Shown here: positions 3,255-30,684 of the stretch, piece by piece
How positions within the stretch are numbered: the first letter of the stretch is position 1
How the letters are laid out: every line of letters begins with the position of its first letter
From: Vitis vinifera
Taxonomy: Eukaryota; Streptophyta; Magnoliopsida; Vitales; Vitaceae
Direction: 5' to 3'
Assembly: GCF_030704535.1 (NCBI RefSeq)
Contig: NC_081820.1
Coordinates: 26,765,001 to 26,829,000 of the forward strand
DNA length: 64,000 nucleotides
Notes under the pieces: generated by a model
What the model was told of the DNA's origin: nothing
The model's input: the letters and a program-made list of their open reading frames with translations, nothing else
Databases searched by the model: none
Position numbers and translations under genes: made by a program

Positions 3255-4753
3255 TCATTGAAACCTAATCCTTCATACTTTGGCAGGCTCTTGAGGTCTA
3301 TCTAGACACTTCATTTTCATTTTTGTAGGGACTTTATGTGTAGGAAATTACTGGCTTTTGAAATCCTCAAAAAGTAGTGTAACTTTTGGAATTGGTGGCA
3401 CCCAATCTCTGCCTTTCATTCTCCTTTTTCAGTTCTTTAGAGATAGAACTGTTATTGTCTGTATCTATGATCTTACTATTAGATTATGAGAAATGGTTCC
3501 TCAGCTACCACCTGCCAAGGAAGTGGGACAACAGCCCAACCCAACTGTCAAAAAGACAAAAAAAAAAAAGTAAAGGATGAAAATTGACTGAATATCTAAA
3601 ACATTTAGGAATGTATAACAAACTATTGGCTTGATGAGGTACTCCATTGAAATCATCCTTATTTGTCCAATAAAAAGGAAATTATTCCGAGTACTTACTT
3701 TTAAGCAAAACCCAAGATTGTCAGCACTCATTTGGACTTTAGTGAGTGAAGCTTGATATGATCAGTTCAGGGGCTAGTGGTTTAGCTCATTTCTGCTACT
3801 TCTTTCAATTGTCTTAGTTGTTAAGTTAGTGGGTCTCTAGAGTTTTTCGAACATATGGCTGGTAGGATGAAGTAAGGAGAGGGTGGAAATCAAAACTCCT
3901 TGACTGAAGGTGAGATCGTTTCTCTGATAAAGGAATCGAGCTCATCCTGTTTCTCAGTAAATGAATCGAGCTCAGCCTCCCAGTCTTGCTTGGTTTGTGC
4001 CACTGTAGTATTAAGAACAGAACTAGAACAGTAAAAGAGAATCAGTTTATTCTCTTTGTACGAGTGTAAGTGTGGAATGGACGGAATTAAACCTACAAGC
4101 AAGCCCATCAAGACACACCTATTTCCATATATTTGAATGAGTATATTCTTCAGTATGCCCATTTTTCCAAACACCCAAATTCCATGTCTTGGGGATGATT
4201 CAAAGCACCAAGAAAGAGAAAAATTTACAGAAAGCCAAAGGCACAAAGGGACCCAGCAGTTGGGGCTGTGCAGGGATCCAAGAGTTCCATTAGCTCTATA
4301 ATAATTTAAAGGTGAGGGATTCAGATGGAAATTTTAGGATTCCTTACCCAGAAAGCAGTAGAATTCCCGCCTTTTATGTTTTCTTTTCTCCCTGGAATCT
4401 CATCTTTCTCCATGCCCAGAAAACAATCAAAGAAGGAAAGGCGAAAGAATCCCGCCTCATCGTTCCACTCTCTCAAAAAACCGCTTAAAAAAGATACTAG
4501 AAAACTTCTTTTTTCTATCTTTCCTCATCACATGTGAGGCGAAATGAAGTCAGAATGATGGAAAAAGAGAAGATAAGATACACAATCCAAACAAGCTTTT
4601 CATTCTCACTTATAATTGTAACTTTCAATCCTATCTTTCCTTATTAATTACAGATACTGAAGAGCAAAACACATGAACCCTTAAGACAGCAAAATAGGTA
4701 ACAATGCAAACACAAAGAAAGAACTCACTGGATGTGAATAGTTAAATCTTAAT
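3255..4753. other. Spacer with no recognisable gene
   Basis: Several small open frames occur, the longest on the minus strand at 3890-4246, but none resembles a known family or shows splice structure. Bases from about 4,560 to 4,753 probably include the 3' UTR and terminator of the NHL gene that ends at 4754. Confidence 0.5.
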
Positions 4754-16575: not shown

Positions 16576-19495
16576 CTAAGTGTAGACCCCCATTTGGGGC
16601 TCATTTTCTGCAGCTTGCTTTTAGCCAAGTGTCACCATCTGGGGGAAGCCACGTGTCACATTTTGACTAGCTGCTAGAGAATCACAATAGTGGAGTTGGA
16701 GGAGCAATCAGGGATTGACACCTGGAGGGGAGCTGCAGAAGAGGTACGTTTCTGTTATGGGGGAGCGTCTCCTGCAGGTGGTGGTGGCTTTTAGAGAAGG
16801 CTGCAGAAATCTTTAGAGGGAGAGAGCTTTTGTTTGGTTGTTTTTGGGAGCGAGGGGAGAGATTTCCATTGCCAAGGAGGAGGAGGAGCGTTTTTGGCTG
16901 CAGGGGAGGACGGCGGTTGAAGATATTTTTGAGGGCATTGCTTAGCTTGAGAGGGGAACCGGATGAGAGAAGTTGGAGGCTGCAGAGGATGAGGTTTTTC
17001 ATGGCTTTTTAACAGAGATTTTGAGGCGTTTGAAGGGAACAGAACCTTACCGGAGAAGGGCACTCTCAGGTATGAATGCAGCAGGTACATTGTTTTATTT
17101 TGGATCCTTGCTATTTCTCTGCATTGCTTGTTGATATTTGGATATTTGTTGTTTTGCTTGGGGTGGATAATGAAGGCCACTTGTTGCTTGTTGAGATATA
17201 ATCTTGAATTCATACCTGCCATTGTCAATCTTAACATGTTATGTTTCTATTTGTGACTATGAAATGCCCGAGAATCCCACCAATATTGGCATTTGATGCT
17301 GTTTTTCCCCACCTAATAGGAAGGTTCACTGATGACTCATGATGTGAATCTTCCTTTGAGGACCTTTTTATTTGTTTCCCTTTGTGCTCTGTTTTCATGC
17401 ATTTCTTTTCATGGTTGAGGCCACCTCTGTTCCTGGATCTTGTTCATTATACGGGTTTTGAGAGAAGAGATACCTTTGAAAGAAGAGATGTCATCTGGGG
17501 ATGAGAGGAAGAGAAAGTGCAGCTGCATCAACAGATCAGATAGAGAGTCCCCATGAGGAAAATGCCCGTGAGAAGAGAAAGTCAAGCTCCAGTAAAACCG
17601 ATGTTCCTCTTCTCTTGGACCTGCAGGTGGAGGAGACAAAATATGTGCTGAAGTGAAGACGATTCTGAGGATGGAACTTCTGGTGCTTTCTGCTCTTCAG
17701 TGGAAGATGAATCCAGTGGCCCCAACTCCGTTTTTCTTATCACATTATAAGAAGGCTTGGATTGAAGACCCGCTTGCATTGGGAATTTCTGGGGAGGTGT
17801 GAGCGCCTTCTCTTCTCTGTCATTACCGATTCGAGGTTCTTGTGTTATCCTCCTCTCACCTTAGCTACAGCAACCACGCTGCATATAACCACAGAGCGAG
17901 CCACAACACTTGGTGGTCTCAGTGTCAGTGATTGAGATACTCCTATCACTGATATCCAGTGGGGAATTAATGTGCCTGCAATGGTTCTCATTCTTTCAAT
18001 TCCAAAAAGCAATCAGGATGCAGTTCAAATGGCCTATCATCTTCATGACCATCCGGAAACCCATCGAGGAAACAAACTCCAAGTGCTCAGTACGCTCTTT
18101 CCCACCAAATATCGCCCGTTGCTCTACATGCACACTCATCCTCTTTAATACCCTTCATACCCATCAAAATCTTTCATACCCATACCCACCACCCATCATT
18201 CATCCCATGCACGACCAGAGGAAAACACTTGTGATAATCTGGACCTCGATAGTGGTGTTGGTGATACATGCAGTACCTAGCTGGAAACTGATGCTGAAGA
18301 CAGGAATTTAGTTGCATCAGATGATAAGGAATCATCCAAGATGGAAAGCTCTGAGCAGTACATAGAGTCCTCATCCGATGCTTCATTGGCTAATATTGAA
18401 TCTTTCCTTCCAGAATGCATAAACAATGTTGCTCGTCCTCTTGAAACAATTCCTCAAAGTGCTGATACATGCCACATCCTTGTTGAGAAGAAGGGAATTG
18501 CAGTTGTTCTGGTAGGAACTTGATTTCTGAAGATGTCAGTCCAAGACAATTGAAGCACATGCATGCTAATAACCTAAGAGAAATCCCTGGAAATTACCAT
18601 GGAGCATCTATGTCGAGAGCAATTGCTAGTCAGTCTCTGAATAGTGGTCATTCCAGGTTGCATGCACAGTTCTCTCAAATGAGACCCGTCTTGATGGCAC
18701 CTTCAATTGCACCACGGACACCAATAAATCCCACGAAGAGCAGAACCGAGGAAAGCTACCTGTGATAACAAATTCAGCCGAGGTAGTGGAATAAGAAATC
18801 TGGAAAGAATTCCCTGAAGACTCCTTTTGAAGTTGTGATTGCTAGATTCCCCATTACCTCATTCTTTCATTTCTACTTGGTTCGTCGGAAGTGGAATCCA
18901 TCGCTCATTGGTGCAGGGATGTGATGATGCCGACTGAAATTCAAATTGTCTATGTCATTGACTGTCTTGGTGTCGACACATCTGATGAACTAGCAGGCTG
19001 TGTATATATGATGGCCATGCGCACACGCATGATGCTGAGGGAAAGAGTCTGATTGGAGCCATGTCAGGCCATGAAAACTGGGTGCTCTGTGAGGCTATGA
19101 CGCCTTTAACTGTGGCTGATTCTGTTCCACTCATCCAACTAATCCATACCCATGCTTCTCTCATCACCTTCCATCCCTCATGCCCCTTATATCTCCATAT
19201 TCTATCACTCATCCCATTAATTAATACCCATTCATTTGTTAAATCATTCGTCAGCCATCCCACTCATTGTTCATGCCTATCATACCCGTCCTCTACCTCA
19301 CCACCATATCCCCACCTTTTGATACCCATTTCTTGTAACATACATAGCCATTGTTCATACCTCTTCCTCCCACTAATCTGTACCGCTCATATCTCCAATT
19401 CATTTTGCCCATCACTATACTCATCACGCCCCTATTTTACCAGCACTTACCTTTTCATAAGGGATGCATAGAAGCTTGGGTTGTTGGTGTTGATG

Positions 19496-19620
19496 TGAGC
19501 ATGATGAGACAGTGTAGGAGCCTCAAGCAGATAGGGCCTTTGCAACTTCTGAGGATGCATGGAATGAATCACTTGGAAGTGGAACCGAGATCAGATTGCG
19601 TCTCAGTGAGGAAACGAATG
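19496..19620 (+). pseudogene. Captured fragment of an endoplasmin-type HSP90 gene
   Basis: This stretch contains ADRAFATSEDAWNESLGSGT followed by EIRLRL, close to the plant GRP94/endoplasmin N-domain block (ADGAFAISED.WNEPLGRGTEIRLHL). It is about 40 codons of a protein of some 800 aa and lies inside the LTR-bounded element. Divergence shows it is not under strong constraint. Identification is from memory of the family. Confidence 0.6.
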
Positions 19621-19784
19621 GAAAAATATACCCTGTACTGATTGCAAAGCATGATGTGATGGACTGGACATGTACACGAGGATGGCTGAATTTTCCAGTT
19701 GGTTTGTCCATGGAACATGAGATATACAAGTCAGCTAATACATTGAGGAGCAAGGCAGGCGCTGTAGCAACTTTCTCAGGCATG

Positions 19785-20105
19785 ACTCGGGACATGACTA
19801 GGCCCGTCAAGCTGCTTTTTCAACTGGAAATCTGCAGCTTGTAGGGACTGATCATTGTGCCTTCAATTCCACACAGAAAGCTTTTGGAATAAATGATTTC
19901 CGAAAAATTCCTAGTGGTGTTAATGGTATTGAGGAGATGATGTATCTGGTTTGAGACACAATGGTGGAGTCTGGCCAAATCTCAGTCACTGATTATGTCC
20001 GGATAACAAGCACTGAATGTGCTAGAATCTTCAACATGTATCCAAGGAAATGAGCAATACTTGCTGGATCTGATGCAGACATAATCATATTAAGCCCAAA
20101 TTGGA
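19785..20105 (+). pseudogene. Captured fragment of a dihydropyrimidinase (PYD2-like) gene
   Basis: It contains GTDHCAFNSTQKAFGINDF and, about 35 codons later, VESGQISVTDYVRITSTECA. Both are near-identical to the C-terminal half of plant dihydropyrimidinase, the second enzyme of pyrimidine catabolism. Only about 105 codons of roughly 530 are present, without introns visible inside the piece, which suggests capture from mRNA. It is a fragment within the LTR-type element and cannot encode an enzyme. Confidence 0.75.
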
Positions 20106-20559
20106 TGAACCTGCACCGACAGAAGTGATGAAGAAACTGTTTAAGAATTACAAAAAAATGGGGGCAAGTATTTGGATCCGAATAGTGGCTTTTGGCTACC
20201 TGGTACCAGAATCCACATGCAGGCCCACTTCGGTGTGCATGCTACCAGCTTTGGGCTAGTTCCTAGCCTTGAATAGTCTACTAGACGATGCTAGAGAGTG
20301 ACAGGTGGGATGCACGCCTGGTCAGGCCCATCAGTAGCTTTCATGAGCACTGCACCCATCTAGGTTATGGTACCTCAGACACTGTGTTTGGTTTAATTGG
20401 AGGGAGGAACAGAACAAGGAGACTGACCTTATTCATATTATGGATGCCATGATAGACTTGTTCACCATTCCAATAGGAATCTTCATTTGGACTTCAACTC
20501 AGGTTTCAGCATGTCAACGTGGAAGCAATAATGATTCGACAGGTAAGAAACAAAGTGAG

Positions 20560-20825
20560 AAGAATCTACAGCAGAATGGTTTTGTGGAAGTTAATGGAAA
20601 TATCCCATTAGCCAAGTATGAGAACAATGAGAAACCTTGGGATAGAGAAGAAGTTGGGCTCTTGATAAAAGGGATGCTGAAATATCCCAAAGGAACGTCT
20701 TGAAGATGGGAGGTTATTTCAAAATACATTAGCACAGGAAGATCCGTGGATGAGATATTGAATGCAATCAAAACAGTTCTTCTCCAGAAGCCCAATGCAG
20801 CCAAAGCTTTTGGTTTATTCCTTGA
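20560..20825 (+). pseudogene. Captured fragment of a ZRF1/DnaJC2-like SANT-domain gene
   Basis: Seen: EEVGLLIKGMLKYPKGTS at about 20650-20703 and a nearby [19 protein letters not shown] block at 20734-20790. They match the SANT/Myb-like region of plant ZRF1-type J proteins (consensus [42 protein letters not shown]). Only one SANT-sized segment is present; no J domain is seen. It abuts the cysteine-protease piece. Confidence 0.7.
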
Positions 20826-21090
20826 TGAAGATCAGATTGCTGCTAATCTTGTGAAAAATGGTCAAATGGTAGTGGGCATCAATACAGTGTTCATGCAGAC
20901 ACATATTGGGGAAGTGTCACGCCCATACATATGCTTTGAGAGGATGGCTCATGGAGTGTTACTGGTGGGGCATAGTTCAACAGGCCATGATCCCATCCGG
21001 ATGAAGGGTAGGCCTTACTGGATCGTAAAGAACTCATGGGATGAGAAGTGGGGAGAGAATGGATCCTACAAAAGCTACAGGAGACCGCAC
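20826..21090 (+). pseudogene. Captured fragment of an RD19-like papain-family cysteine protease
   Basis: Seen: [20 protein letters not shown], then [10 protein letters not shown] (catalytic His region) and [16 protein letters not shown] (catalytic Asn region). These follow the C-terminal lobe of plant RD19-type proteases. The propeptide and catalytic Cys are absent. The open frame 20746-21360 runs from the ZRF1-like piece straight into this piece, so at present a chimeric reading frame exists. Whether it is transcribed is unknown. Confidence 0.75.
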
Positions 21091-22007
21091 TCTTTGCATG
21101 GCCACCTAGGACATGCAGCCTTTGACCATGTGCCACCACCTTTTACTTCCTCATTCTCTGTTTTAATAACTGTTCCTAATCCCATTTTGCAAGCATTTTC
21201 TCAAAAATCTGGTTTTCAAATAATTCCAATTCTCTCATGCTTCCTCATTGGAATCTTTAGGTTCCAAAAGTTTCCACTTTCTAATAAAAATTTGCTGTCA
21301 CTTTTCTCCCTTACAAGCAATTTTCACAACTCCTCAGATTTTCAAAATGTTTTAAAATAAGCTAGAATAAAATTCCGTAATTCCAAGCAAGGGAATTTAT
21401 GGAATTAATTCATGCAAAAATGAATTGGGTCTTGGTGGAGGCCCTACATATGAGATTCCATGATTGATTGATTGATTTATTTGTCATGCATGATTGATTT
21501 ACTCTGTTCCTTGATATACACATTATCCTTCTGTGTTTGTTCACTAACCATGTTTGTGATAGCGCGTTGCCATTCGCTGATCAGGTACGCATCCACTTCC
21601 ACTTCGGTTATTTTCTATTGCATATCCTGATACTCATATGTGCATGATCGATTCGAGTATTCCTTGATTTTCTCATTGATTGCCATGTCAACTTCATCTC
21701 ATTAGTAGAGACCCGACTTTAGGGACTTAGAGGGGTGCTACGGTCTTTACCGTACCTTCCCGATAAGTAACCTGACCCCCGAACCCGATCCGGTTTTTCG
21801 TAGATCACCTTTTCCAAAATAAGGAGTCACACTTAGGGTTTTTCTTTCTTATTTTGTTTACCCTTTAAAAATAAAACAAAAATAAGTGGCGACTTCAAGT
21901 CATTTTCAAATAATCAATAAAAATCATTTTTCTAAATAAAAATCGAGCTCGCCATCGAGTGGGAAACGCATTCGAGCATGAGCCGAAATGCGGGGTCCAC
22001 ACTAAGC

Positions 22008-22860
22008 TTATATTTTTTTTTCACATGTCATTCAAAAATCATAATTCATTGTTAATGGTTTTTGGTAAGGACCACTTCAACGAAATGAAGTGGTCTACAA
22101 TTTTTCTTGGTTTAGTGTCAATCGGATGTTTCCAAAATATCTTAAAAAGTAGGAAATAATGCTTTGGAAAATATCTTCCAAAAAGTATACTAGGAAATTT
22201 TTTAAAACAAAATATTATTGTTGGTAAAAAAAAGTTAATTTTGCATAGGTTCCGGGTTATGTTTAATTCAGAAAATTTGAGGAAAAATAGGAGAGAAAAA
22301 AAATAAAGAGGAAAAAAAAAGTGAAAGAAAATAGAAAATAAGTTTAAACTCGATAAATTATTTTTATATGTTTCTTTAAATTCATTTTATTTATTTTTTT
22401 ATTATATAAAAATTAAATAATTTAAAAATATATAAATTTTTGATAAATTTTAATTATATTTTATATTTTATTTCTTTTGTATTTTTTTTCAGAAAAAATC
22501 ATTTTCCTTAACATTATTTTCTTTTCTTAATAATTTTCAGGAATCAAAGATAACCTAAACGTTTGAGCTAAATATACATAGTAACTATTGATTTAAAATT
22601 TTGTTAAATTCCTTCTTTATTATTTTTATTTGTTAACTTCTTTCATATCTTTTTTATTCAAAATGAGATAAGTATTTAATGAAATTTCAAACTAATAATT
22701 CTTTTGAGAAAACATTTTAAATTTTGTTAAATTCTTCGCATTTATATAATTATGAGAAAATAGTTTAAAACAACTAAACTGTTTGAGAAGTATTTTTGAA
22801 AACATTTCTAAAAACTATTCTATAATATTTGTAGAACAAAAGTCTATTTTGAAACATTAA
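22008..22860. repeat. AT-rich repeat spacer
   Basis: No gene. The part 22,210-22,560 belongs to an AT-rich dispersed repeat with relatives at 24,790-25,090 and 63,440-63,930. The shared landmark is the order TAAAAATTAAATAATTT, then ATATAAATTT, then TTTTAATTATAT. Confidence 0.5.
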
Positions 22861-23544
22861 GGGTCTGTTTGGTTGCTGTTTTTTAAAACTGTTGTGAAAA
22901 ACAATTTTTAAGAAGAGTTTTTTGTGTCTTCAAAAAAAAGAAAAAAAAAATTGTGTTTGGGAACTGAATTCCGGAAAACAGTTTTTGTTCTAAAAAAAAA
23001 ACATGTTTGATTGAGTTAATAAAAAAAATAAAATAAGTAAAACAAAAAATATGTTTGAAAGTTATTTTTTTAATTAATAAAGTGTTTTCTTCCATTAACT
23101 TGATATTATAAATATATAAATCATTTTCATATACACAATTCATTTAAATTAAAAAAAATTATTCCATTTAAAAATTTTTACAACAGTTATAATATTTTTA
23201 AACAAATGATGACTTTGTAACCATGTGTAAGTATATTAATTTCAATAATTTAAGGAAAAATAAAGGGCTTGGCCAGGTGGGGGTGTGGTGGTTGGGTAGG
23301 GCTCACATTTGTGGAAACACAAAAAACAATTAAGAAAATACAAAAAAAAAAAATCTATTGTTTTAACAGTGAAAAAACAATGAAAACATCTTTTTATTAT
23401 TCTAAAAAAAAAATGGTTTTTGAGAACACGGAAAACACAAAAAAAACAAAAACAAAAACACACTCCCTTCCCCAAACAAGGTTTTTGTTTTTTGTTTATA
23501 AAAACAGAAAACAGTTCTTGAAAATAGGAACCAAACAAGCCTAA
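22858..23544. mobile_element. MITE, Tourist/Harbinger-like
   Basis: The left end GGGTCTGTTTGGTTGCTG and the right end, read on the other strand as GGCTTGTTTGGTTCCTA, form an imperfect inverted repeat of about 30 bp. Flanks are TAA at 22858-22860 and 23542-23544. TAA duplications with GG..TGTTTGG ends suit PIF/Harbinger (Tourist) MITEs. The interior is AT-rich and non-coding; small open frames in it are chance. Confidence 0.65.
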
Positions 23545-25369
23545 GTATTCTTAATTTGTTTTTTTTTTTTTTATGTTTTTAAATATGTTATAAAAATGAC
23601 TTTTATTTGTCATATTTTATTTTTAATTATTCTCAATATTTATATAATTATTTTTTTTAAAATCCCTTAAAAAATAAGTTAAAATAACTAAAAACAATTC
23701 AAAGTTATTCTCTAAAAATACCATTTTATTTTTTGTTTTTAACAATAAAAAACTATTTTCTACTTTCATGGTTTTTTTATTTTTTATTTGGGAGAGTAGA
23801 ACTTTGTTTTAAAAAAACAGTTTCGAGGCCCTATTTTTTGTATTTTAATAATGGAAATATGGGCTATGTTTATGAAGTTTTTTTTAAACAATTTTGAAAA
23901 CCAATTTTTGATATAAGTTTTTAAAATTTGTTTCACAATGTTTTGTAAAATAAAAGTCCATTTAAGAACTTGAAATGTTCTTAACTTATTTTGATATATT
24001 GTTCTAAAAAATAATTTTTGAAAATTGTTCTATAATGTTTTGTAAAATAAAAGTTTGTTTGAAAACATAAAATGTTTTTAACTTATTTTTAATATTTTTA
24101 AATATGTTTTAAAAATAAATTTTATATTTAGTATTTTATTTTTAATCATTTTACATGTTTGTATAATTATTTTCTAAAATAACCTTTAAAAAACAATAAA
24201 AACATGTTTTCTAAAAACATTTTGTTTTTTTTTCTTAAAAATAAAAAAGAAAATACAATTTATAGTTGTTAAATGTGTTTTCTTATTTTTTATTCTAAAA
24301 AATAAAATATTGTTCTCCAAAACAGTTGTCAAATAGACCATAATTTTTTTTTTTTATAAATAAAAAATTATTTATTAGTTTCTTATTATAAAAAAATGTT
24401 TTCCTTTTTTTTTTATTAATTTCTTATTATAAAAAAATAATAAAAAAAAACCGACAACATGTTAGGTATTGATGAGATTCACATGCCTAAATTTTTCTAC
24501 ATATCATTCACAAGTTGCAACTCATTGTTAGTCATGACCATGACAAGAAGTTTCCAACTATTAGGACATCTCAACAAAATTGTTTGACATACAACTTTTC
24601 CTCATGACTATCAAACAAGATCTTTCCAAATATCCTAAAAAAAAAAAAGTAACAAATAATGTTTTCACATGATGATCAAAATGTCAAAACAAGTTGTCTC
24701 CTATTAGACAACTCGCAAGAGATCCATTCACATTGCATCGGCAAAAAAATGCAAGAAAAATTTAATAGAAAAAAAAATCGAATATAAGAAAATAATTTTC
24801 TCTTCTTAGCCTATGTTTAGTTATCAAAAAAATTGAGGAAAAAATGAAAGAGAAAAAAAAATTAGAGAGAAAAAGTAGAAGGAAATAAAAAGTAAAGGAA
24901 AATAAAAATAGATTTAAAGTCAATAATTTATTATACTTATTTAAATCTTATATCTAAATATTAAATAATTTAAATATATATAAATTTCTTAATAATTTCA
25001 ATTATATTTGACTTTTTTGGTATTTTTCGTGGCAAAACCAAACATTTCCCTAATGCTCTTCGAGAACCAAAACTTAGCATTTTTTTTTCTTAGTATTTTA
25101 TGAAAATCAAACATAATCTTAGTGTTTTTCAAAAATCAAACCGATGATCAAAATTCTAATTCTAATAAATAGAAAATTATTTTTAAGAATAATTCATGGG
25201 GAGAGTCTATTAAAATTATTAGAAAGCAATTCTAAACAAACAATTTATAAGCATAATTCTTAAAAGATAATTTTTATTTTTTTAAGAACAAAATTGTAGT
25301 TGAGAACTTCAATGAAAAATCCTTGAAATCCCCCTTAAAAAAAATGTTTTTAAGATAAATTTCAAAAAT
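23545..25369. repeat. AT-rich spacer with internal repeats
   Basis: No gene. The phrase ATGTTTTGTAAAATAAAAGT occurs near 23,939 and 24,034 in similar surroundings, and a weaker relative precedes the MITE near 22,830, suggesting MITE-like copies of one family. At about 24,790-25,090 lies another copy of the dispersed AT-rich repeat. Confidence 0.5.
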
Positions 25370-25463
25370 CTTATTGTAGACCCTCATTTTTTGTCGAGGT
25401 TTTTTTCATTTTTGGAGCACATTTTTACCACATTTTAGGAGGTTTTGGCAGCAGGTGTAGGAG

Positions 25464-28379
25464 ATAGTTATTAGAATAAATGTGGACCCACATCATATTA
25501 ACCATTGTTCAGGATTTAGCTATCCATATATATATATATATGATTTCTATTTGATCTAGAGTATGGACTACCTCATGTGTAGAGCCTAAAGCCATAACGG
25601 GTATTAGATGATGAGCTTAAGACTCGCGAGGCCCAATAATCCATAAGGTATGGTCTCTATGCCGTATAAATATAAGGTTAAGTGTATGTTCTTAAGATCA
25701 CATCTTTTTAAGAATAGAACCCGCTCTCTCCCGCTCCCATTGTCAGAGAGACTAAGAAAGATGGATACCCCTCTACAACCTAAGAAGATTCATACCTCTT
25801 CATCAAGCACATAATGGATTTAGGTTGGTTCCCTATCTGGTGATTAAGGCATGTTGTTGAATGCTTGAGATATATATATAATTTGTGTGTTTGGTGTTAA
25901 TGGAGAATATAGAAGTCCAACAATTGGTATCAAAGCCTGGTTGCATTTCCCATTTTCACCAAAACCTTTTTTTTTAATAAACACAAACAAAAGGTCCAAA
26001 GCAAGAGGAGGGTTGGGAATGCCGCTACAGACGTCGTTTAGGCATCATTTAGCACCTGCAAGAGACACCACTCAGGGCGCCATTATAGGCGTTGTTCAGA
26101 CGCCATTTCAAGCGCACTCCATATGCGGTTCAGGCACAGTTCGGGTGTCGTTTTCCCATCGTTCCATTTTGATGCCATTGATGACGCCGTTTAGCAACAT
26201 TCTCAGGCGCCGATGAGGGGTGTCGTTTTGACGTAGTCTGGTGGTTGGAAAAGGCGTCATTTGGCACCGTTTTAGGGCGTTCCATGCGTCGTTTTCAAGC
26301 ATTCCAAATGCCGGTGAGGAGCTCCGTTTTGGCGTTGTTGCAGGCATCCTTGCGGCGCCGCTCTCGGCGTTGCTAATGTTCAGAGAAGATGACGTCATCT
26401 TGGCGTCATTCGGAGGTCACAGAAGATCGATTTAAAGCCGTTGTCAGTTCCGCTTCGCTGTGGGCGCCACTGCCGCCGTTGTTGCGATGTTGGTTCTAGT
26501 GCTGACATCGTTTGGTGATGGGAGAACACCGATTTAGGCAATCGAAAAGACATCGTTTTGGCGTCGTTCCCAGTCGACAACGCCGTTTTGGCTCCACTAA
26601 GGCACCGATGCAATGTTGCCTAGAGAAGCCGTTGTCGGCGTCGGCTCTCCATTACAGCTTGCAACGCCACTACCGGTGTCCTTTGGCAATCGGAACGTCA
26701 CTTCCAGCGTCCTATGGCGTCATTTGGCACGAGTGTAACCCTCTTCATAGTTGGATTCAAATGGAGCCTCTGAATGGTTAAAATGGGCCAAATCTATCTC
26801 AAAGGCCAATGTTGAATTGCCCACTTATTTCTTTTAACAAAATGGGCTTCTCTCCATGGCCCAACATTCAACCATTTCTTTTGCAAATTGGGCCACTACA
26901 TCATGCAGTGAGCCATATGGCTCAAAGGCACTTAAGTGATAAAGTATGAGCTTGAATTTGTAAGCGTTTTGGGCCATCTTTGGCCCACTTTACCATTTAA
27001 TGATGAAACTTCTGGGGCCTCAAGAAGCAGTTCAAAATTTTTTTTTTAGATAATGGGCCCTTAATCAAGGGTTGAACGATAAGCCCAAAAATCACTTTGG
27101 CTGCACTATTAAATGAAGGCCCAATTTATTGAGTTTACTTGATGGGCAATTCATTTGAATAAATAAATTGTTTCTTACTGAATTTGTGTTTAACATTTCA
27201 AAATAAATAAGTTATGTATATTTGTTGTCAAAGTAACTTGTGTTACGTAATTTTATTTATTTTTTAAATATGTAAGCATGTTATTATTATATAAAACAAT
27301 CGACCCAAAAGAATATTATTTTAATATAATAATAAATAAAGTAATCATAAATATGTGACATATAAAGTTTATCTTACATGATGTATGTTAGTCCAAAGAT
27401 AGACATATTGTTTCGGTTTTATTGTCAATATTTATGAATTAATTTTGAAAAAGATATCAATTACAAGTTGATATTTTTGTCCAAAGACTGAATATCAATG
27501 TTTATGCTAGGTATCTTGTAATAGGCCCACATCGCGTATACATATATATGTTAAAATTTTTATTTATTCATATATGTATGATATTTTGTGACTGATTGTT
27601 GATGGATTGAGAAACCATTGAGAATCAATTGTGATAATAAGGCCGCAAAATTATATTCTAAGAACAACCGAAGTTCGTCAAAGTCCAAACACATTGACAT
27701 CAAGTTCTTGGTTGTAAAAGAAAGAGTTCAGAGTCTTCAAGTATCAATTGAACACATAAGCACAAACTCCATGATTGCGGATCCGCTCACCAAGGGTTTG
27801 CCACCCAAAGTATATAATGAGCATGTCACATATATGGGTGTTGTACACATTGATGATGTGCTAGTATAGTGGGAGTTTGTATTTAGATTTTGTATTTGTT
27901 TTCTTGATGTGATATTATGTTTGTGTTATCTGTACATACCTTAATTTTAAAAGACTATTGTATTTGAATACTCTAAATTGAAATGATGACTTTCAAAAGC
28001 AGTTTAGCATCAAGTGTTGAAAGTAGAATTTGACTATTTTTAGTCATAAAGTAGGACCAATTAGAAATAGACATATTAAAGATCACATTCTATGTAATTT
28101 CCATGTTACACATCCATATTTGATCTATGTTGCTAATTTTGTTAATGTTGTGATCATTGATGGGTCTAGTTATAATTATGATTAACGAAGGCCGCTTTGA
28201 TCCTATGTTAGCATAATTAGTAGACCGGATTGTTTAAGGATATTTGAATAGGATAGCAAAGATGAGCTCAATGAAGTATTATCATGAACATTGTTGGCTA
28301 ATATATGTGGTCCAAGTGGGAGATTGTTAGAATAAATGTGGACCCACATCATATTAACCATTGTTCAGGATTTAGCTAT

Positions 28380-28958: not shown

Positions 28959-30684
28959 GGGTTGGGAATAGTGACCTTTTCTGGAAGCAACCAGCATGTG
29001 ACAGGTGGCATGGGAATATTCTGCAAGCCGTTAGAGGAGAGCTATAAGGGAAAGAGAGAGCTGGAAATGTGGGAATAGATCGTTTTTTCGGTGAGAAAAA
29101 AATGTTGAGCTGAGCATGAGACAACGGAGAAGAAAGGTTTTTTAGAGATAGCTTGAAGAAAAGGAAAATCAGCTTAAAGAAGAAAAAGAGCAGAGCAGAG
29201 AAGGAGATGAACTCATAAGTTTCCTGGCTCATTTTTGCTAGAAAGGAGCTCTCCTAGGTGCAAGCATTATGGATTTTATGTTCATATTTCTCATTACATT
29301 GTTCTTCATGCATTTTTCTTGTTGTTTTTAACTTTCATTCGCTGCTTGGATGCGACTACTCTGTTATTCTCTCATTTTCTTTTATTTCACTTGAGGATAT
29401 CATGCGTATGGGTTCATCTGAATCATGTTAATGTTCTCTGTCATTCCCCTATTCATAGCCCATGGATTCACATCTGAAATGAGGCTCAATATGTTTGCTA
29501 TTTGGTATTTCCCGTTTGTTTCTTGGGATTTACCTTGTTTTAACCTCTATTTTTTCTTTTTCCATACACGTTTTTTTTTTTCTTTAAATTTGTGAATCAC
29601 CTGTTGAGTTGTGTGAGGCTGGAGAGGGAATGAAAGTCACTACACTTAAATCATGCTTTGGAGTCATCAATATTTCTTCAAGGAATTGCATTCAGCTTCA
29701 AGAGCTAAATCTAAGCTTGGGATGAGAAAATGGTTTTATGGAGTAGGTTTCCTGAGATAGGGAATCTTCTGCACATAAATGGGTCTTATGGAGCTTTTGA
29801 ACATGGCCCGGTAAGAATCTAAATATCATCACTTGTTGGATTCCAGTGAGCCATCACCACTACCAAGTTATGCTATTTTGAGGTGTAGAGAGCAATGAGT
29901 ACATTGATCATAATGGCTCATGGGATCAATCATTTGCATTCTAAACGTCATAGTCTACCATGTAGCCAAGCTCTGAAACCAGGCCTCGTATCAATGTAGA
30001 TTGGCATTCGCCTCAATCTCTTGCTCTCTTACTTTGTATCTCCATTTTTAGTCTCGGCTCATGCAAAGTGTGAAAGCTTCAATGGCTGAAAGGCTATGGG
30101 TTCTATGTTTTTGAAGCTATCAATCAAGACATTAGGTTCTATTCTCCTTAATTTTTAATAATTTTCTGATTTTCATTTTTTTTATAAGCATGAATAATTG
30201 TATAATTTCAAATAATGAAATTTATGGAGTTAATTCATGCTAAAATAAATTGGGCTTTAGTGGGATCCAACATATGAGATTTTCTCATTCGTCGATTGAT
30301 TGCTATGCTTGATTGACTTGCTTTGTTTTGTGACACATGTGATTATTTTGTATTTGTTTACTAACCTTCATTTTCCATGAAGCAATCAACTCACTACTTA
30401 GGTATACACCTTGTCTTTCTTGTTCATTTGATTATTTCTAAATTGATATTCTTCTGGTATCATGTTTAATCAATTAATTGTCACACTTACTTTAACTTAA
30501 TTAGAAGAGATCTAATTTTTAAAGCTTAGAAGGGTGCTACGGTCTATCACTGTAAATCAATTATTTTTCCCTTTAAAAATAAAACAAAAATAAGTGGCTA
30601 CTCTAAAAAAGTTTCAAAAATTATTTTTCAAAATAAAAAAAACGAGTCGTACGCATGCGTGCAGAATGTAGGGTCCACACTTAT

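Follow-up and report, generated by a model that had tools for sequence, protein, structure and literature searches.

A very long solo LTR in the grapevine genome carries a series of intron-free host-gene fragments

A solo LTR at the locus

The stretch analysed here, hereafter the window, comprises 64 kb of the Vitis vinifera genome (C16:26765001-26829000, where C-numbers denote contigs of the searched 495.6-Mb assembly of 21 contigs), and it contains a 5,421-bp unit on the plus strand (16581..22001) that begins with TGTAGACCCC and ends with GGGGTCCACA, ends that are common to paired and solo long terminal repeats (LTRs) elsewhere in the genome. This unit is one very long LTR standing alone (a solo LTR), and its interior is a patchwork matching about eleven unrelated host genes. 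It lies between two perfect 5-bp copies of CTAAG (16576..16580 and 22002..22006), the target-site duplication. A first-pass annotation, made from the letters alone, had described this duplication together with TG...CA ends and a 10-bp near-perfect inverted repeat, all of which are present; the repeat matches at nine of ten positions when TGTAGACCCC at 16581 is set against the reverse complement of the right-end GGGGTCCACA. The right edge proposed there, 22007, is one base too far, as the duplication ends at 22006.

The same annotation took the unit for an element bounded by LTRs, and this part of its interpretation does not hold. Self-comparison of the unit revealed no long direct repeat or LTR pair inside it, while units of the same size flank interiors elsewhere in the genome, which identifies the unit as one LTR. 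No primer-binding site (PBS), polypurine tract (PPT) or second LTR was found in the window, where the start and the end of the unit each give one full match, and the window has no tRNA or Rfam matches. The unit shows TG...CA ends, a 5-bp duplication, relatives that stand as direct repeats around an interior with PBS and PPT, and no adjoining interior; it is classed with the solo LTRs described below. Since the unit itself is one LTR, the captured pieces sit inside the LTR and not in an internal region.

Three parts of the unit are shared with other LTRs of the family. The 5′ terminal block (16581..16723, plus strand) is 98.6% identical to the C10 LTR and 92.4% to the C17 LTR, and the 5′ inner block (16966..17598, plus strand) is common to some LTRs only, with 97% identity to C10 over the whole block and 93% (C5) and 94% (C19b) over about 500 bp. 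The LTR comparison further defines a 3′ block (21088..22001, plus strand) that is common to nearly all copies compared and that would hold the promoter, R and U5.

Host-gene fragments and their donors

Between these blocks, the host fragments follow one another on the plus strand. A cyclin D fragment (17597..17896; donor C7:26905429-26905976; Pfam) joins three donor exons at 17626 and 17828, and is followed by a 40S ribosomal protein SA-like fragment (17898..18129), presumably from RPSA, whose positions 17899-18013 match an exon at C9:460781-460898 with 76% identity and most of which matches three other loci at 88-89%; an early Pfam scan of 17440-18099 returned no family. A HECT ligase fragment with a DUF913 match, which we take to be of the UPL type (18282..18511; donor C19:8799972-8800201, 92%), overlaps by four nucleotides (TCTG) a fragment of an unnamed C11 gene (18508..18656; donor C11:2638261-2638409, 94%), after which comes a polyadenylate-binding protein-like fragment (18658..18725; donor C18:8490027-8490094, 90%), assumed from its peptide to be PABP. 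The DUF913 match in the window has an E value of 0.012 and falls outside the family count given below, which used E ≤0.01.

Further along lie a WD40 fragment that we assume to be SKI8 (SKI8/VIP3-like; 19008..19084; donor C11:1380693-1380769, 91%), a fragment taken, by us as by the first-pass annotation, to be endoplasmin (GRP94 HSP90; 19517..19613; donor exon C18:12441493-12441589, 85%), and a FYVE-protein fragment (19642..19751; donor C11:411129-411238, 99%). A dihydropyrimidinase fragment (19833..20102; donor C6:18659716-18660360, 93-100%; Pfam) joins four donor exons at 19925, 19966 and 20019. The last two pieces are a ZRF1-like SANT fragment (20517..20831; donor C1:707613-707926, 90%; Pfam) and an RD19-like papain protease fragment (20820..21081; donor C3:267431-267901, 87-100%) with an intron removed at 20872, whose match overlaps that of the SANT fragment by 12 bp. 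Identity to the donors is thus lowest for the RPSA-like piece (76%) and highest for the FYVE piece (99%), and single exons reach up to 100%. The endoplasmin, dihydropyrimidinase, SANT and RD19-like pieces had been named in the first-pass annotation and all four now have located donors, and the exon-like stretches it had left without names (e.g., 17,940-18,060 and 18,280-18,770) resolve into more host pieces with donors. The eleven donor loci are separate and lie on several contigs, by which one contiguous donor locus is ruled out.

Some stretches between the pieces are without a named source. The segment 19125-19290 is C+T-rich with ACTCATCC and ATACCCAT repeats and is common to at least six other loci (92-94%), and the unnamed segment 20100-20523 is common to loci on C16, C10 and C7 (89-91%).

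Spliced origin and sense orientation

Most pieces lie within a single exon and are uninformative on introns. All six donor introns spanned in the unit (three in dihydropyrimidinase, two in cyclin D and one in RD19) are absent, which agrees with the serial, same-strand and intron-free arrangement described in the first-pass annotation. In each of the six cases, one of the best-fitting models is a GT..AG intron of precisely the length needed, tied for the top score. In addition, the C10 LTR joins two WDR11 exons that lie about 9.8 kb apart on C11, with the intron absent, so that all seven tested donor introns (six in the window unit and one in the C10 relative) are gone. The tested pieces derive from spliced RNA.

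All 11 located donors read in the sense direction of the LTR, the strand being assigned by Pfam for six (cyclin, DUF913, FYVE, amidohydrolase, SANT and papain), by the presumed protein names for four and by the sole open frame for the unnamed C11 gene. If strands were random, the two-sided chance would be about 0.001 for 11 of 11 and about 0.03 for six of six. A Pfam scan of three frames per strand (E ≤0.01) was extended to eight LTRs, namely the window unit and seven relatives from a set of twenty 10-kb pieces (this sample does not include the C8, C19b, C15, C18 and C3 copies, the second LTR of C5 or two additional LTRs of C2). Families were found in the sense frames of seven of the eight: papain, amidohydrolase, cyclin and Myb in the window unit, NOT1 DUF3819 in C9, malate or lactate dehydrogenase and WDR11 in C10, papain and Tub in C2, LSM, papain and amidohydrolase in C5, tubulin and a weak QLQ in C17, and RMI2 in C14. 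The 24 antisense frames of the same LTRs gave two weak EGF-type families only, a contrast which indicates that the host-piece matches are not due to chance.

As this first set had been found by similarity to the unit, and some of its members share pieces, a second set of seven LTRs was picked by end motifs on C1 and C2: among 12 LTR starts listed for these contigs, eight had a listed 3′ end less than 7 kb away, and seven of these were taken; the remaining one is the partner of the L034 LTR. Counted pooled over the seven LTRs, the second set has 13 Pfam families in sense frames and none in antisense frames, including thymidylate synthase, DHFR, DUF641, DUF2053, PPR, ribosomal L2, HSP70, aminotransferase and WDR11. 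EGF_Teneurin, also among the 13, is probably a spurious match, and two pairs, PPR/PPR_2 and thymidylate synthase/DHFR, may each stem from a single gene counted twice.

Relatives and lineage of the family

A search of the genome with the whole unit gave at least 51 matched stretches (from the 40 of 4,361 candidates that were scored), several of them paired 12-18 kb apart on the same strand. These relatives comprise paired LTRs of 4.6-5.4 kb around interiors of 7.9-13 kb with PBS and PPT, as well as solo LTRs, which carry different duplications. The C5 pair consists of units of about 5.43 kb (9150352-9155792 and 9135398-9140825) around a 9.5-kb interior; their identity is 99.6% over 4,606 bp, 97.4% over the remaining 846 columns and about 99.3% overall. 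The C2 copy has three units, each about 4.65 kb long, with interiors of 7.9 and 13.0 kb between them, and CCTGC repeats flank the entire array. This C2 copy (L008-L011, C2:17348873-17383714), with three near-identical LTRs and two interiors in tandem within one duplication, is perhaps a product of recombination between copies. Solo LTRs with the family termini carry duplications of their own, namely AGTCA, GTGGC, ACAGG, AGATG, TTATT, ATAAG, CAACC, GTTTG and GCATG, and CATGC in a copy for which four right-hand bases were read; the termini are thus shared by copies with different duplications, as expected from the first-pass description of LTR-type ends. The copy with TTATT flanks (C8:20296478-20301556, L006/L007) consists of a solo LTR followed by a second, partial LTR 3′ end of 117 bp, the two being joined via a PBS-like sequence.

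In the relatives, the PBS directly 3′ of the 5′ unit is AAATGGCGACTCC(A/G)CTGGGGA, also read as TGGCGACTCC(A/G)CTGGGGA, and the PPT directly 5′ of the 3′ unit is GAAGAGGGGCATATT or AAAGAGGGGCATATT. The PBS of Ogre elements is complementary to tRNA-Arg. A search for a primer tRNA gene for the relatives' PBS with one strict tRNA-gene pattern gave no match. In one C2 interior, a stop-free frame of at least 1,459 codons, which runs on to the end of the piece (L010:5619-9998, minus strand), contains in order PF00078, PF17919/PF17917, PF13456 and PF17921, i.e., reverse transcriptase (RT), RNase H, a second RNase H-like domain (RVT_3) and an integrase zinc domain. One frame of the C5 interior is gag by Pfam, and four other frames of that interior had no Pfam match. 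According to PMC6317226, the Tat clade, to which Ogre belongs, is marked by an additional RNase H (aRH) beside RT-RNase H. Because the C2 frame has a second RNase H domain, as in this clade, the family is putatively assigned to the Tat/Ogre branch of Ty3/gypsy.

Conservation along the LTR and mosaic history

The family is large: the terminal 18-mer occurs 1,978 times in the genome with at most one mismatch and the 5′ 22-mer 312 times with at most two mismatches, while the reversed control patterns of both end motifs do not occur. Among 15 LTRs of 1.9-7.4 kb that were compared, a set that leaves out the C8 and C19b copies, the last 700 bp of each LTR is covered by 12.1-14.0 of the 14 others, the middle by 0.07-1.14 and the first 80 bp by 0.0-10.2 at the threshold used. 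At this threshold, the C2, L030 and L036 LTRs have few or no bases within their first 80 bp that the others match. This coverage profile indicates that the family retains the 3′ block, retains the first 80-150 bp variably and differs almost completely between them. The probable plan of the family LTR is a short 5′ terminus and a 3′ block of about 0.75-0.9 kb, separated by a slot of 0.6-6 kb that is filled largely with pieces of spliced-mRNA cDNA in sense orientation.

The window LTR is a mosaic of different family members. Beyond its inner block, which follows C10 at 97% (16966-17598), it matches the C9 LTR at 96% over 18203-18734, where the UPL, C11 gene and PABP pieces stand together, the C5 LTRs at about 96% over 19170-22001, and the C2 and C8 LTRs at 92-94% over 20626-22001. 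The stretch 19170-22001 is present in both C5 LTRs and holds five of the 11 pieces (endoplasmin, FYVE, dihydropyrimidinase, SANT and RD19), and their presence in both of these near-identical LTRs shows that the five pieces were replicated with the element. The unequal donor identities suggest captures of different age, with the nearest paralogue uncertain. The idea that pieces present in more copies are further from their donors was considered and dropped; the HSP90-FYVE stretch is found also at loci on C2, C17, C7 and C4, and the degree of sharing bears no simple relation to divergence from the donor. Where a junction can be viewed from both sides, two of three show overlapping matches, i.e., the TCTG between UPL and the C11 gene and the 12 bp between SANT and RD19.

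Origin of the captured pieces

Taken together, these results make it probable that the unit is the solo LTR of a giant Tat/Ogre-type Ty3/gypsy retrotransposon whose slot was filled by repeated template switching onto co-packaged host mRNAs, probably during U3 copying. Template switching had been put forward in the first-pass annotation and is supported as the best explanation. In the proposed sequence of events, host mRNAs would be packaged with the element RNA, and after the first strand transfer the reverse transcriptase making the minus strand from the U3 of the 3′ LTR would jump to an mRNA at short homologies and later back. Since the new DNA carries this U3 in each of its LTRs, a capture there would be written into both ends and inherited, and five pieces do stand in both C5 LTRs. 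Repeated cycles, with switching between family members, would produce serial and mosaic LTRs, and LTR-LTR recombination, the standard explanation for solo LTRs, would have deleted the interior here and left one LTR between CTAAG repeats. The switching is placed in U3 because a capture there would enter both LTRs while leaving the promoter, R and U5 (the conserved 3′ block) and the attachment end intact. However, selection alone, purging captures elsewhere, could give the same restriction to the LTR.

Several observations weigh against this account. The GT..AG model is not uniquely best at any tested junction, being tied in six cases and slightly lower for WDR11, where it fits 87.7% and the best shifted model 88.6% (0.877 vs. 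0.886). The first cyclin junction fits only 84% ungapped, and a first splice test with narrow limits gave no GT..AG at the second cyclin junction and nothing for RD19, both of which were found with wider limits. For the RPSA-like (76%), HSP90 (85%) and RD19 (87%) pieces, the true paralogue may be another than the donor named. The C11 gene-PABP junction shows no overlap, the C19a LTR (one of eight) has no Pfam family in its sense frames, and the flanks of the C5 element are an AT repeat, which makes the duplication there not decisive. A 175-bp segment common to the C17 LTR (2365-2539) and the L035 LTR (3719-3893) at 96.6% lies in opposite orientations in the two, so not every insert obeys the sense rule, though this is the only inverted sharing among the 15 LTRs. 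Finally, the borders of U3, R and U5 are putative, being drawn from sequence comparison.

The rival explanations differ in where and how the pieces would have been taken up. That the unit is an LTR-bounded element with the captured pieces in its interior, e.g., a non-autonomous large retrotransposon derivative (LARD) or an element of the Bs1 kind, would suit the TG...CA ends and the 5-bp duplication; with no direct terminal repeat in the unit, neither PBS nor PPT in the window, and both flanking repeats of the C5 element matching the unit in size and ends, it was rejected on the missing internal LTR pair and the paired whole units elsewhere, provided that the C5 and C2 pairs are not assembly artefacts, and we give it almost no credence. 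Capture at the DNA level, by a gene-loaded Helitron or Pack-MULE inserted in an ancestral LTR or by genomic DNA filling a double-strand break, has a precedent in the gene pieces carried by plant Helitrons and Pack-MULEs, as stated in the part of the source available (PMC6431247), and would accommodate the one segment inverted between two LTRs. However, the loss of all seven tested donor introns and the sense orientation of all 11 located donors speak against it, and a single nested insertion cannot explain middles that are largely different among 15 LTRs. A Helitron or Pack-MULE as such was rejected, since the tested introns are absent and the ends are LTR ends with a 5-bp duplication, and DNA-level capture as a whole appears very unlikely.

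Intron-free pieces, as found, would also be expected if processed pseudogenes driven by long interspersed nuclear elements (LINEs), or cDNA patched into breaks, had accumulated in old LTRs after insertion. This explanation leaves the sense bias unexplained, and events after insertion could not give the same five-piece series in both near-identical C5 LTRs; moreover, the pieces that match proteins are coding sequence, and reading through them, without a systematic scan, showed neither tails nor private duplications. It is accordingly held to be highly improbable. A variant that is compatible with template switching onto host mRNAs, namely that the capture took place in the internal region or 3′ flank and was later recombined into the LTR, agrees with the mosaic structure of the window LTR (the 5′ inner block 97% like C10 and the 3′ half 96% like C5). 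No capture was seen in the interiors, although the scan, its weak point, covered eight open frames of two elements only, and this variant is regarded as unlikely but worth bearing in mind.

Comparison with known elements and implications

In maize Bs1, the host pieces lie between its LTRs. Bs1 is an LTR retroelement with pieces of three host genes, according to the portion of the source available (PMC13317346), and resembles the present case in that host pieces were taken up by an LTR element, here spliced, in sense and replicated with the element. In contrast to Bs1, the pieces here are inside the LTR, a single LTR has eleven donors, and other family members carry other pieces. Host pieces on LTR elements are likewise reported for the gene-fragment LTR retrotransposons of maize, rice and sorghum (PMC2774510; PMC3726574), and the maize survey, in its accessible sections, records no element that combines fragments from two or more standard host genes. 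BARE-2 and Veju are described as chimeras from abnormal template switching (PMC13317346, same portion), and in BARE-2 foreign sequence entered the LTR by this route; its source, however, was another retrotransposon and not host mRNAs. The very long LTRs, additional RNase H domain and large interior are shared with Ogre/Tat elements, and Ogre LTRs of 1.9-6.5 kb are given in the available part of PMC6431247. Whereas Ogre LTRs are described there as extraordinarily long and not as host gene pieces, the LTR middle here is largely host mRNA and varies by copy. No description of host gene pieces inside Tat/Ogre LTRs, or of LTRs made of serial host mRNA pieces, was found in the open-licence literature, whose main texts were covered in part. 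Gene capture by LTR retrotransposons as such is already known.

A broader proposal, for and against which the chances seem evenly balanced, is that the long LTR is a standing capture site, i.e., a hypervariable U3 slot refilled with host mRNA cDNA such that nearly every insertion lineage has its own series, and that Ogre-type giant LTRs are long as accumulated host-mRNA patchworks and not by virtue of their own sequence. If true, the 1,978 LTR 3′-end matches would form an extensive archive of earlier host transcripts and a natural record of the mRNAs packaged and of the time of packaging, as well as a steady source of sense host-exon copies next to a promoter. A large family of serial, sense and spliced pieces would show that mRNA template switching can occur often in a plant lineage and be focused on a single step of reverse transcription, and would offer an origin for the extraordinary length of Ogre-type LTRs. 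Such LTRs could also supply new exon combinations and perhaps small RNAs that target host genes, and, as a warning for annotation, they may be called genes, pseudogenes or Pack-type elements.

Sequence beside the unit

Directly after the solo LTR, the window is very A+T-rich (22001-26000, G+C 0.21-0.25). Further downstream, two short matches to the LTR 3′ block, at 30203-30281 (81%) and 30565-30602 (95%), are a possible remnant of a related LTR.

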